Positions 4,640 through 46,933 of a stretch of 64,000 nucleotides of DNA are shown one piece after another. Numbering within the stretch: position 1 is the first letter of the stretch; each line of letters begins with the position of its first letter. The notes under the pieces are model-generated. The model saw only the letters and a list, made by a program, of their open reading frames with translations, did not search any database and was not told the origin of the DNA. This DNA comes from Bacillota bacterium (GTDB lineage Bacteria > Bacillota > Negativicutes > CTSoil-072), in assembly GCA_017889545.1 (NCBI GenBank), contig JAGFZV010000003.1:1-64000 (forward strand), in the 5' to 3' direction. The translations under genes were made by a program, and so were the position numbers.

Positions 4640-4870
4640 AACGAAAAAACCCCTCGGCAAACAATGCCAGGGGCGAGTCTTTCCCGCGGTACCACCCTGA
4701 TTAACAGCAAAAACTGTTATCTTATCAGTCGCTAACGCAAACTACGCGTCAACCGCTATTTGCTTGACGGTTGATCCTCCACAGTGAGTTCAGTGGGTTT
4801 GTGGATTGGTTCGCATCAGTCACCAACTTTCTGAGCCACAGCTTGCACCTACTACTCTGTTTCAATGGAT
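4640..4870 (-). promoter_or_regulatory. T-box leader (tRNA-Leu responsive) upstream of leuS
   Basis: Minus strand carries the T-box core AGGGTGGTACCGCG (rc of 4685-4698), followed by a terminator hairpin CCCCTGGCATTGTTTGCCGAGGGGTTTTTT just before leuS. Confidence 0.88.
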
Positions 4871-4983
4871 ATCGGTTTAAATTATATAAAAACCTTGCGT
4901 AAAAGTCAATCATACTCTTTCCCGTTAACGTGCAACTCATTTACAAACCAGCAGTCAATACCATATAATGTACGTATACCCCA

Positions 4984-23988: not shown

Positions 23989-25166
23989 CTACAGCTTCTC
24001 AATCACCGTTGCGATTGCCGGTCCGCCGCCGACGCAGAGAGATGCCACGCCGTAGCGCTCATTGCGGCGCTGCAGTTCATAAATCAACGACACAATGATC
24101 CTCGCTGCCGTACAGCCAACCGGATGGCCGAGGCCAATTCCTGAACCGTTGGCATTTACCTTATCCATATTCAGCTTCAATTCCCGGTTGACTCCCAAAA
24201 ATTGGGCTGCAAAGGCTTCATTGATCTCATAATACCCGATGTCTTCCGTCCGCAAACCTGCATAACTGATCGCTTTCGGCACGGCATAGACCGGTCCGAG
24301 ACCCATCACTTCCGGATGAACTCCGGCATTGGCTGTCGATATCAGCCTGGCCAGCGGCTTGCATCCCAATTCTTTGGCTTTTTCCGCAGTCATCAAAACC
24401 AGCGCCGCAGCGCCGTCGTTAACGCCGGATGCATTGCCGGCAGTTACCGTACCGTCTTTTTTAAAGGCCGGCTTCATTGCGGCCAGTTTTTCCATTGAAA
24501 TATCCGAACGCGGATGTTCATCCGTATCGACAATGACCGGTCCTTTTTTCGTTGCAATGGTCACCGGCGTAATTTCGGCTTTAAAAACACCGTCTTTTAT
24601 TGCCTGATGGCCCGCGTATGACTAAGATAAGCGAGTTCATCCTGTTCTTGCCGGGTAACTCCGTACCGTTCGGCCACATTTTCCGCTGTTAATCCCATAT
24701 GATATCCCTGCACGGCGCAAACCAATCCATCATACAGCATCGAATCAAGAATCTCGCCATTTCCCATCCGGTAGCCTTCCCGGGCGCTTTTGAGCAAATA
24801 TGGGGCCTGAGACATGCTCTCAATGCCTGCCGCAACGGCTATATCCGTTTTCCCAAGCAGAATCGATTGGCTGGCCATCTCAAATGCTTTCATCCCTGAA
24901 CCGCATTGCTGATCGATCGTATACGCATACCCTTCTACCGGCATACCGCATTTCAACTGGAGCTGCCGTCCGGGGTTGCCCTTCGCGCCGGCCTTGTAAA
25001 TCATGCCGCATGCTAATTCAAAAACTTGTTCCGGCTTTACGCCGGCTTGAGCAAGTGCCGCATTCACTGCGGCAACGCCTAAATCAACTGCGCTGACGTC
25101 TTTCAATTTGCCCAAAAAATCTCCGATTGGCGTACGCTTTGCCCCTACTATAACTACTTCTTTCAT
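23989..25166 (-). pseudogene. Acetyl-CoA acetyltransferase (thiolase), disrupted by a single frameshift
   Basis: N-terminal half 24597-25166 (active-site DQQCGSGMKAFE) and C-terminal half 23989-24564 (GHPVGCTAARI, GGGPAIATVIEKL) are in different frames; adding one base near 24605 gives RAIRAIKDGVFKAEITPVTIATKK. Confidence 0.85.
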
Positions 25167-25331: not shown

Positions 25332-25637
25332 CTACACTTTCGTTCCTTTGGCCATTATAAACTTCATAAAGCAAATCTTTTCGACATCTACCAGGATAGT
25401 GGAATAATGCTCCGCCAACTCCGGTTGAAAATATACCGTTATTCCATCTACATTCATTTGATGATAGTCGCCGGGCTCGTTCGGTAAACCCAATCGCACG
25501 GATGGGTAGCGGGTCGGCGGCCCGCAGGGGCCTGCTCAGGCAACTATTGAAGTGATCGAGCTATAAACTGTAATGATTTTATCACGAGATTTACTTGTAA
25601 TATATGAATGGGCCGCTTTTTCTATCAGTATCTCCAT
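25332..25637 (-). CDS. Candidate selenoprotein, HesB-like/CC-Se-motif family (in-frame TGA at codon 34)
   Basis: Minus-strand ATG 25637 with AAGGTG RBS; TGA read as Sec gives MEILIEKAAHSYITSKSRDKIITVYSSITSIVAUAGPCGPPTRYPSVRLGLPNEPGDYHQMNVDGITVYFQPELAEHYSTILVDVEKICFMKFIMAKGTKV*; GC-rich hairpin GCGGG-ccgccga-CCCGC follows the TGA. Confidence 0.72.
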
Positions 25638-25748
25638 GCCATTTCACCTTCTTGTCTTTTTTCTGGCCAAAAATCCTATATTCAATATATCATAATCCTT
25701 TTATCCCATCATTTCAAGCAAATTGCATACATCCCGTGATCAAAGCAA

Positions 25749-27421: not shown

Positions 27422-27501
27422 TTCGGTACCCCTCCTTACATCATCGTTACTTAGCTATATTATAATACAATATATTTTTCAGAACAATCTGAATTATTTT
27501 T

Positions 27502-30500
27502 TGATGAAATTCGTTATGGTCAGATTTAAACTGTATTTCTCAAGAGCGCTCAACCCTGCCATCTTCATTACATTCTAGTATGGTCAGATTAAAACGGACG
27601 CTGGTTGGCGAGATTATCACCGATTTTAACGAATTTACATTCCAGTATGGTCAGATTAAAACCGTTAAGCTTTCGCCTTCGACATTAGCATATTTTTTAT
27701 TTACATTCCAGTATGGTCAGATTAAAACTGAAGCAACAGTACCATAAGCGGCTAAGTTACCTTGATTTACATTCCAGTATGGTCAGATTAAAACTCACGG
27801 TGCAACATTCGATGAAAACGATACTTATATATTTACATTCCAGTATGGTCAGATTAAAACTGTTGCTGCTGATCCTGTCGCGCGGGTAATTATCCATTTA
27901 CATTCCAGTATGGTCAGATTAAAACGATACGTTGCACAAGGTATTTTGCATTGCTGACATATATTTACATTCCAATATGGTCAGATTAAAACCGAAGTGG
28001 ATTCCGTTTCTCTGCCCTTGAGTGGACCAATTTACATTCCAGTATGGTCAGATTAAAACAATGAGGCTCACTAGGAACGGCAATCACGCGATCAATATTT
28101 ACATTCCAGTATGGTCAGATTAAAACCCGTTTCTATGCCGTTGGGTACTTCTGCACCTGTCTAATTTACATTCCAGTATGGTCAGATTAAAACCTTCATA
28201 CAACCTTCCTAATTGGTCTTGCAATTCTTTATTTACATTCCAGTATGGTCAGATTAAAACCGGCTTTCGGTTCTGATGCCTTGTTATCATCCTCTCACAT
28301 TTACATTCCAGTATGGTCAGATTAAAACCGCTTTGGCATCGCGCGTATAACTTAATCTGGAATGAAATTTACATTCCAGTATGGTCAGATTAAAACCTGG
28401 AATGTTTAATCAACATAGTGCAAATGATAAAAATTTACATTCCAGTATGGTCAGATTAAAACAGGTGGAGCGAATACCGTTATAAACCGTCTCAAATTAC
28501 ATTTACATTCCAGTATGGTCAGATTAAAACGGCGCCGATGGTCCGTGTATGTGCTGTAAAGGGATCTATTTACATTCCAGTATGGTCAGATTAAAACCAG
28601 GTTTTTTGTTTTTTCTAGGCTCGAACATCGAAATTTACATTCCAGTATGGTCAGATTAAAACTAGCGCAGGACTGTTTTTGAATTTAGTTTCAAGTTTAT
28701 TTACATTCCAGTATGGTCAGATTAAAACTGGAACGTCCAATGCTTTGGCGATCTTCCCGACTTGAATTTACATTCCAGTATGGTCAGATTAAAACCTACA
28801 TTTGGCAAGTAATCACGAATAGCCGGACAAAATTTACATTCCAGTATGGTCAGATTAAAACCCGAAACCGAAAACCAAGGCAGCTTAAAGACCATCAATT
28901 TACATTCCAGTATGGTCAGATTAAAACAAGTGACGTTGATAGTTCGACAAGGGCGTTATATGTATTTACATTCCAGTATGGTCAGATTAAAACCGGAAGA
29001 TAGCAAAGATTGGATTGCACTTTCCGTTCAATTTACATTCCAGTATGGTCAGATTAAAACCCCATAAGGATGACTAAGATTGATGGGGAGAGTTAATTTA
29101 CATTCCAGTATGGTCAGATTAAAACTTGCACGAGTCGTACCATTGGACATTATCGCAGATTGAATTTACATTCCAGTATGGTCAGATTAAAACACTAAAA
29201 CTGGGGTAGTGATAAAGTTTTGTATAAACATTTACATTCCAGTATGGTCAGATTAAAACATGCGAGAATTTTGCAGAGATGCAACTGTTCAACGGATTTA
29301 CATTCCAGTATGGTCAGATTAAAACCAACAGCTGCTAACTTTGAAGCTAGGGTCTTTGCAAATTTACATTCCAGTATGGTCAGATTAAAACAGGTGGCCA
29401 ACAGCTTCTGAATGAGTTTATCGAACAAAATTTACATTCCAGTATGGTCAGATTAAAACTTCGCCGGCTGAATCCAAATTGCGGTTTTGTGCTGAATTTA
29501 CATTCCAGTATGGTCAGATTAAAACTACAATAGCCACCATTTATGGTAATGTTTTTACGAGGATTTACATTCCAGTATGGTCAGATTAAAACCAGATGGA
29601 CACCGAAACAATGAAAGAGTTTGGCCAAATTTACATTCCAGTATGGTCAGATTAAAACCTATGACAGTTGCGTAGTTTGACGATGATCCAACATGATTTA
29701 CATTCCAGTATGGTCAGATTAAAACCAGATAATCGTTGTTATACAATTTAATGCATCCTTTATTTACATTCCAGTATGGTCAGATTAAAACGCCGCTTGC
29801 GTTGGGAGTTTGGTTGATGCTGGTATAATTTACATTCCAGTATGGTCAGATTAAAACAATAATAAGGGGGCATTGGATGGATGAGGAAACTCAAATTTAC
29901 ATTCCAGTATGGTCAGATTAAAACTTGACCTGTCCAGTTGTTGGGCAGGTCTTTCCACTTATTTACATTCCAGTATGGTCAGATTAAAACCAGATTGATA
30001 AAATGAAATGTTGCAATAACTGTAAAATTTACATTCCAGTATGGTCAGATTAAAACCGGTATTGGTCCCGGCAATCGCTGGGAAGTTGGCAAATTTACAT
30101 TCCAGTATGGTCAGATTAAAACTTTCCAAAAGAAATTCTTTCGTTTCTTCTTTGATTTATTTACATTCCAGTATGGTCAGATTAAAACATATTGCTTACT
30201 AGATTAGTTAACTGTTGGTGGAAATTTACATTCCAGTATGGTCAGATTAAAACAGGACCGGATAAGGCCGCCTAAGTATGTTAGTATATATTTACATTCC
30301 AGTATGGTCAGATTAAAACTCAGATGCGGTCACGCGATCCAGAGTTCTACGTCAAATTTACATTCCAGTATGGTCAGATTAAAACCGAGTTGTCACTTGG
30401 TCCGCTGTCTAAATGCCAACCGATTTACATTCCAGTATGGTCAGATTAAAACAATAATCCGTTGCTGTAATAACTAGATGAGTAAATGCATTTACATTCC

Positions 30501-31512
30501 AGTATGGTCAGATTAAAACAGAATACCTGGTTCCGACCTCTGGCGCAACTTCGAAATTTACATTCCAGTATGGTCAGATTAAAACCAAAATGTGATAAAA
30601 AACATTGACATGCACAAAATGATTTACATTCCAGTATGGTCAGATTAAAACCTTTATCGTTTTCAATTCTGTCAAGTGACATTTTCTTATTTACATTCCA
30701 GTATGGTCAGATTAAAACCAGTTCCGAATACCCCGGATAAGGCTGGCTCAAACAGATTTACATTCCAGTATGGTCAGATTAAAACCTAACCGAGTCGTCA
30801 TATCCGCCCATATGCCACCGGAATTTACATTCCAGTATGGTCAGATTAAAACCATTGTGTTGGCCTCACAGTCTAGCCAGGACTTGTATATTTACATTCC
30901 AGTATGGTCAGATTAAAACCCACAACCCCACGCAATACGCCCCTGTGCCTTCTGAATTTACATTCCAGTATGGTCAGATTAAAACGAAATCGCTATCACG
31001 CCTTCGCAGGTTTGGCTTTGGAATTTACATTCCAGTATGGTCAGATTAAAACCATATGCCACCGGATGGCCATGATTTCTTCAACTGTATTTACATTCCA
31101 GTATGGTCAGATTAAAACCCAGCCATCGCAACCGCAATTCCAACTCTAATTTTTATTTACATTCCAGTATGGTCAGATTAAAACCAAAAGCGACTTCCAG
31201 ATTAAAACGCTGGATGCTAGATTTACATTCCAGTATGGTCAGATTAAAACCTGGGCACTCTATCAGCCAACCATCTTGAGTCTTAATTTACATTCCAGTA
31301 TGGTCAGATTAAAACTTTGCCAATCGGAATGACAACGTTATCAGCAAACTGATTTACATTCCAGTATGGTCAGATTAAAACAACATTTGGGTATTTTGAG
31401 GTGACAAAATGAGAACTATTTACATTCCAGTATGGTCAGATTAAAACCATTCGAGAAAGCGCACGGATACAAGCCGGGTTGGATTTACATTCCAGTATGG
31501 TCAGATTAAAAC
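27502..31512 (-). CRISPR. Type I-B CRISPR array, 61 repeat copies (leftmost degenerate) and 60 spacers of 34-38 nt
   Basis: 30-nt repeat ATTTACATTCCAGTATGGTCAGATTAAAAC on the plus strand (GTTTTAATCTGACCATACTGGAATGTAAAT in the inferred transcribed orientation); copies counted by hand. Confidence 0.98.
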
Positions 31513-46125: not shown

Positions 46126-46933
46126 GATGCCGATCATTGTCACTGCCTTTTTTCTTTATTTTTTCGCTGCCGTTTTTTATATCGGCTACATCGTACTGCT
46201 GCGCCCTTGGCTGGCCCGCTTGGGTCGTTGGACCGCCATCGCCGGTCTGACTGCTAATTTTGCCGCTGCAGGGTTGAGAACATTTCATGCCAGCCATGCT
46301 CCTTTTGCAAATATGTATGAGTTTGGCATTGTTCTGGTTGCGGTCATCGTCTGCGGCTATTTATGGATCGATCTTCGTTACGGCCATCACTCGCTGGGCG
46401 CTTTCATAATGCCTGTAGCCTTTCTCTTTTTGGGTGTGTTCATTCTGTTCTATCAAGATGCGAAGCCGTTGATGCCTGCCCTGAAGAGCAACTGGCTTTT
46501 AGCCCATGTCATGACGGCGGTCATCGCGTATGGCGCGTTGGCATTTTCCTTTGCCGCAGCGTTAATGTACCGATGGCGCCGCTATCTGGATACCGGCGCC
46601 AACCCGGCGCTCCTTGCCCTGATCCCCGCTCCGCATGTCCTGGAATATCTGATTAACCGCTCGATTATTCTGGCAATGCCTTTTCTCACCTTGCTGATCA
46701 TTACCGGCGCAGTATGGGCCGAATACGCCTGGGGATCGTATTGGCGCTGGGATCCGAAAGAAACATGGTCTTTGGTTACATGGCTTGTGTATGCAGCGTA
46801 TCTGCATGGCCGCGCTGTCTATTCATGGCACGGTCAAACCGCCATCAATTGGGCGCTTTCCGGTTTTTTGATCGTGCTCTTTACGTTCATTGGTGTCAAT
46901 GTTTTGCTGCCCGGACTGCACAGTTATCAATAA
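46112..46933 (+). CDS. ccsA: Cytochrome c biogenesis protein CcsA/ResC
   Basis: WAEYAWGSYWRWDPKETWSLVTWLVYAAYLHGR tryptophan-rich motif. Confidence 0.96.
   Translation: MPNYEMPIIVTAFFLYFFAAVFYIGYIVLLRPWLARLGRWTAIAGLTANFAAAGLRTFHASHAPFANMYEFGIVLVAVIVCGYLWIDLRYGHHSLGAFIMPVAFLFLGVFILFYQDAKPLMPALKSNWLLAHVMTAVIAYGALAFSFAAALMYRWRRYLDTGANPALLALIPAPHVLEYLINRSIILAMPFLTLLIITGAVWAEYAWGSYWRWDPKETWSLVTWLVYAAYLHGRAVYSWHGQTAINWALSGFLIVLFTFIGVNVLLPGLHSYQ

Follow-up and report, generated by a model that had tools for sequence, protein, structure and literature searches.

A predicted selenoprotein gene of the NF041239 (CC/Se) family with an in-frame UGA and a candidate SECIS hairpin in a Negativicutes contig

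Introduction

The CC/Se family of selenoproteins, listed in a 2026 review, was predicted from Moorella thermoacetica with the motif CxxU (PMC13188914). The same source models the bacterial selenocysteine insertion sequence (SECIS) as a hairpin that has a G at loop position 1 or 2, lies 16-37 nt from the UGA and is subject to a minimum free energy (MFE) limit of -7.5 kcal/mol (PMC13188914). Here we describe a gene on the minus strand of a 64,000-nt window (the whole stretch analysed, positions 1 to 64,000 of contig JAGFZV010000003.1) from a Bacillota bacterium of the class Negativicutes. It is highly probable that this gene encodes a 101-residue selenoprotein of the family curated in NCBIfam as NF041239, in which SelB reads UGA codon 34 as selenocysteine (Sec), most likely via a hairpin at 25506-25489, and that the product is most likely a small redox or metal/Fe-S protein. 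The family is already catalogued; the gene is a further member, with a motif of the form UxxxC unlike the review's CxxU.

A UGA-interrupted member of a known family

The initial annotation had proposed a selenoprotein gene with an AAGGTG site, an ATG, an in-frame TGA, a TAG and a GC-rich hairpin, and each of these was found where it had been placed. An ATG (25637-25635) opens a run of 33 codons that ends at a TGA (25538-25536), followed in the same frame by 67 sense codons and a TAG (25334-25332). The features of the gene are as follows.

25332..25637, minus strand: selenoprotein gene, 101 residues with Sec34 (from translation and the NF041239 match; found again in the genome-wide family search)
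Translation with Sec34: MEILIEKAAHSYITSKSRDKIITVYSSITSIVAUAGPCGPPTRYPSVRLGLPNEPGDYHQMNVDGITVYFQPELAEHYSTILVDVEKICFMKFIMAKGTKV
25536..25538, minus strand: in-frame UGA, predicted selenocysteine codon (residue 34; U or C at this column in relatives)
25645..25650, minus strand: ribosome-binding-site-like AAGGTG, 7 nt 5' of the ATG (read directly)
25689..25717, minus strand: sigma-70-like promoter TTGAAA-17-TATGAT, 10/12 (consensus match only)

The promoter match suggests a transcription unit of the gene's own, in a region where such consensus matches are more numerous than in its shuffles. As had been predicted, standard gene callers would miss the gene: no table-11 open reading frame (ORF) of at least 60 aa lies over it on its own strand. 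Ordinary gene calling does not see it, and reading it in full requires recoding.

By itself the frame is weak evidence, because a simple count finds 23 TGA-interrupted frames of comparable shape in the window (33 codons or more, with a Met among them, before the TGA and 60 or more behind it). A frame that is not rare needs homology to carry meaning, and homology is therefore decisive here. With the TGA, or Sec, entered as Cys for the profile programs, the product scores 49.5 bits against NF041239 (curated cut-off 40), residues 1-97 aligning to positions 1-89 of the 91-position model, and the motif column, which takes Cys or an in-frame UGA, is occupied by the UGA of codon 34. At E <= 1 the protein has no other match in the NCBIfam library and none in Pfam. 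Against a family profile of our own, built from 61 other members with the window gene left out, the whole protein scores 78.0 bits, the part after the TGA 56.2 and the part before it 14.2, while no other frame with a score exceeds 0.2 bits. A genome-wide family search finds the gene again at G000:C31:25347-25637, with one TGA. Homologs spanning the TGA do exist, then: both sides match the profile, with Sec or Cys at the column. One locus returned by a contig scan with the window protein (L001) was set aside as a chance hit, being a GC-rich 'CAGPCGP' match with stops in frame.

The second cysteine of the motif deserves comment. The protein has neither an adjacent CC or CU pair nor CxxU; the string reads V-A-U-A-G-P-C, without a Cys before the Sec, and the nearest Cys lies four residues after Sec34. 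A paralog, G000:C40, likewise lacks a preceding Cys, yet scores above the NF041239 cut-off. CC/CU/CxxU is a naming motif that stands outside the curated score cut-off, and across the sampled family the forms CU, UxxxxC, UxxxC, UxC and CxxU all occur. Since the motif varies within NF041239, we have not treated it as defining.

Sec and Cys alternate at the same column in relatives. In a class sample of 301 genomes, 56 hold the family, with 150 matches listed; 78 of these matches contain internal stops and 72 do not, and the in-frame stop codons, counted from the listing, comprise 78 TGA, 2 TAA and no TAG. An alignment of 62 members has U in 33 and C in 29 at the Sec column, where one N-truncated copy is gapped. 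When 20 further members are aligned, five fall off the column or carry an extra TGA: four belong to the UxC subfamily and are shifted by two columns, and one has a second TGA. On the family tree the Sec/Cys state changes 17 times by parsimony, with at least nine changes forced, on a tree that rests on few columns. The window genome itself has five family matches, of which four, including the window gene, each contain exactly one in-frame TGA, and one relative's genome holds up to ten members.

Selenocysteine machinery and the genetic code

The genome encodes a complete apparatus for Sec insertion: SelA (551.9 bits), an adjoining SelB (362.4 bits), a SelD (400.5 bits) whose own gene has one TGA, and a tRNA-Sec of 98 nt that has the anticodon UCA and an encoded CCA. 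Its FdhA also contains one TGA. More widely, SelB exceeds its cut-off in 26 of the 29 genomes with a TGA-containing member against 18 of the 272 without one (Fisher 1.4e-22, a value that ignores relatedness and rests on scoring four SelB candidates in each genome). Of the other three, G091 and G135, of one genus, have several UGA members and no SelA, SelB or SelD found over cut-off, and G074 has one UGA member on a 3.7-kb contig, a SelD without TGA and neither SelA nor SelB; the machinery may have been lost, its contigs may be missing, or there may be contamination.

An open frame alone cannot discriminate Sec from another residue inserted at UGA, such as Trp in a variant code. Even so, TGA ends 15 of the 46 long ORFs in the window and therefore is not reassigned globally, the column holds Cys in relatives and never Trp, and the genome carries tRNA-Sec(UCA) together with SelA, SelB and SelD; we give this explanation a negligible probability. 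From the Sec and Cys homologs, the complete machinery and the want of clear decay after the TGA (see below), we infer that Sec is inserted at residue 34, as had been proposed initially. In mechanistic terms, SelB and Sec-tRNA(Sec) would decode UGA codon 34 as selenocysteine.

A conserved hairpin as candidate SECIS

25489..25506, minus strand: candidate SECIS hairpin CCCAUC-CGUGC-GAU(U)GGG (from conservation and covariation; exact 17-nt core only in family genes)
25509..25525, minus strand: proximal hairpin GCGGG-CCGCCGA-CCCGC, starting 10 nt 3' of the TGA (conserved within the UxxxCG/UxxxxCG subfamily)

The signal for recoding would be a SECIS within the coding sequence, namely the more distal of these two hairpins (25506-25489), 35 nt downstream of the UGA and with a loop GU as in known bacterial SECIS elements. 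It consists of 6 bp with a bulged U, closed by a 5-nt loop whose positions 2-3 are GU, and lies across the codons of P-S-V-R-L-G and the last base of the preceding Y codon. Sec members encode P-S-V-R-L almost uniformly as CCR-UCC-GUG-CGA-YUG (TCC in 42/44, GTG in 44/49, CGA in 34/45, CTG or TTG in 42/44, CCG or CCA in 53/53), whereas codon choice is freer for these residues in Cys members and at most other positions of equal conservation. Folded, the element is CC-R-U-C / CGUGC / G-A-Y-(U)-G-G, and its stem covaries: CCG goes with CUG and CCA with UUG, with some G-U pairs, and among 34 exact matches CCA never occurs with CUG. In a set of 42 distinct sequences, from which the small, divergent UxC subfamily is left out, pairing holds in 99.6% of cells, with nine double changes; none of 500 shuffles scored as high, and sliding the partner by one base halved the pairing.

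The 301 genomes contain 34 exact copies of CCRTCCGTGCGAYTGGG, all 34 by coordinates inside family matches, and no copies of its reversed control; the conserved 17-nt element is thus a sequence tag, marking only NF041239 members in these genomes. Relative to synonymous randomisations, Sec genes fold more stably over the 48 nt that follow the Sec codon (n = 48, median z -1.05, p 5e-12), which Cys genes do not (n = 33, p 0.29); the two groups differ with p 4e-5. A similar loop, CGUGU/CGUGC, tops a distal hairpin in the SelD genes of the window genome and of two relatives. For the window gene, loop, G position and spacing agree with the published model, and the distal hairpin alone, at -4.9 kcal/mol, falls short of the -7.5 kcal/mol limit; with the proximal hairpin the value is -13.6. 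An Rfam scan of the loci returned no SECIS family match. The hairpin at 25506-25489, conserved in nearly all Sec members, is most likely the family-wide SECIS.

Two relatives show this region in other states. At L116 (G115:C6), a Cys member (46144-46434) with the exact SECIS-like core seems to have switched from Sec recently and to retain its SECIS as a remnant; the truncated copy that follows it (46541-46711) has the core too. L056 (G111:C128:200-490, minus strand) carries another in-frame TGA, in place of the Arg codon of PSVRLG and within the SECIS loop region.

The proximal hairpin

The GC-rich hairpin on which the initial annotation had placed the SECIS is real, and the assignment of that role to it fares less well. 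It occurs in the subfamily that has extra residues between Sec and PSVRLG, as TGC GGG ... CCC CGC codons in most members, and is absent from the rest of the family. One could argue that the gene encodes a selenoprotein whose SelB uses this hairpin (25509-25525) and not 25489-25506. Taken alone it is indeed the stabler of the two (-8.7 against -4.9 kcal/mol), and within its subfamily the pairing is kept and has apparently been re-formed in L076 and L110. It nevertheless has no G in the first two loop positions, unlike the published SECIS model (PMC13188914), other Sec subfamilies lack it while nearly all have the distal hairpin, and it is the distal hairpins of the SelD genes that carry the similar loop. 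We judge its use as the SECIS unlikely, and infer that SelB would choose the distal hairpin.

The proximal hairpin may instead be an accessory helix that shortens the effective distance between UGA and SECIS. This leads to a more general proposal, which we regard as evenly balanced: a portable, near-invariant SECIS (CCRUCCGUGCGAYUGGG) in the P-S-V-R-L-G codons would serve motifs of the forms CU, CxxU, UxxxC and UxxxxC at UGA-to-loop distances of 23-41 nt, the extra hairpin shortening the distance in the long forms. The natural series of UGA-SECIS distances could serve to measure directly what spacing SelB tolerates.

Functional gene or decaying copy

Several observations count against a functional selenoprotein with the distal hairpin as its SECIS. 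On the family tree the window gene sits at the end of a long branch (1.13), and its differences from subfamily members at codon positions 1/2/3 are 0.46/0.37/0.66 after the TGA, which is coding-like with weaker constraint. Taken by itself, its fold does not stand out from synonymous sequences (z -0.57), and at the MFE of the stretch, -17.9 kcal/mol, other pairs are preferred, so the fold of a single sequence is not decisive. An AlphaFold single-sequence model, made without an alignment, reached a pLDDT (predicted local distance difference test) of 36.5 and was not used for a fold search.

The long branch and the weaker constraint would suit a true stop at the TGA, with the locus a selenoprotein or Cys-protein pseudogene in decay that yields only a 33-aa peptide. 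Before the TGA the corresponding values are 0.48/0.47/0.66; among other subfamily members they are 0.34/0.29/0.61 after it and 0.35/0.28/0.62 before it. The pattern is coding on both sides of the TGA, third positions varying more than first and second, with faster change in the window gene. Decay does occur in this genome, where the fifth family copy, L006 (G000:C20:49589-49744, minus strand), is wrecked: it has no start, and a frameshift separates the UGA region from a still recognisable core. In the window gene, by comparison, the start, the ribosome-binding-site-like sequence and the exact SECIS-like core are all intact, as is the reading frame before and after the TGA, and this TGA stands at the column where a known selenoprotein family has Sec. 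Decay fits the intact frame and exact core poorly, and we consider it very improbable.

Predicted function and genomic setting

Sec34 occupies the Cys position of relatives, and a second Cys comes after it (UxxxC: U-A-G-P-C). On this basis our best guess is a small protein, possibly on a HesB/IscA-like scaffold, that most likely acts in selenol/thiol redox chemistry or in the handling of metals or Fe-S. The three other UGA copies of the window genome have unrelated surroundings: going by names read from translations, one directly follows hydrogenase subunit/maturation-like genes, the second lies beside an ArsR-like regulator and the third beside a ferredoxin-like protein. Near the hydrogenase-linked paralog is a cyclic di-AMP riboswitch (L002:187-335, minus strand; RF00379, 81.5 bits).

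Given that this genome has four UGA genes and a relative as many as ten members, selenoprotein counts in such anaerobes are easily too low. Canonical IscA/HesB proteins (PF01521 over cut-off) were found in none of eight genomes (G000, G087, G059, G147, G013, G111, G002 and G115), where the weak PF01521 matches are members of NF041239 only, and the role of the multi-copy family is therefore a fair question.

The window holds other features of interest. An acetyl-CoA acetyltransferase (thiolase) gene at 23989-25166 (minus strand) is split into two ORFs by an apparent one-base deletion near 24605, which looks like a sequencing error or a frameshift pseudogene. An array resembling clustered regularly interspaced short palindromic repeats (CRISPR) spans ~27496-31450, with at least 59 copies of the 30-nt repeat ATTTACATTCCAGTATGGTCAGATTAAAAC at 65-68 nt spacing, and a T-box leader lies at 4666-4874 (minus strand; Rfam RF00230, 123.8 bits).

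Comparison with known systems

The protein was first described as a HesB-like 'CC/Se motif' protein, a label of which the CC/Se part stands, through NF041239, and the HesB-like part does not. Although it resembles the HesB-like selenoproteins of TIGR01911 (UxGP) in being small, in containing Sec and in its UxGP-like string U-A-G-P, it has no match to that model at E <= 1, and only 2 of 22 relatives match it (best E 0.03). The same holds for PF01521 (Fe-S_biosyn; IscA/HesB/SufA): the window protein has no match at E <= 1, and 7 of the 22 relatives match, the best at 25.6 bits (residues 1-91) with a cut-off of 26.3. The C-terminal CGC present in the E. coli IscA sequence used is lacking in the window protein, profile comparison with E. 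coli IscA gave no support, and PDB sequence searches with the family profiles found no match. Remote kinship with HesB/IscA is possible, because some relatives sit just under the PF01521 cut-off.

NF041239 (Moor_selen_rel) is the closest described family, which the window protein resembles in its full-length match, its ~100 residues and its VDGI.VY C-terminal part, and from which it differs in UxxxC (UAGPC) and in the insertion between Sec and PSVRLG. Measured against the bacterial SECIS model, the window hairpin is alike in its CGUGC loop with GU, its 6-bp stem with a bulge and its distance of 35 nt. The family's candidate element departs from that model in a sequence nearly invariant across paralogs, in a bulged U on the 3' side and, in at least ten relatives, in a loop 38-41 nt from the UGA, past the published range.
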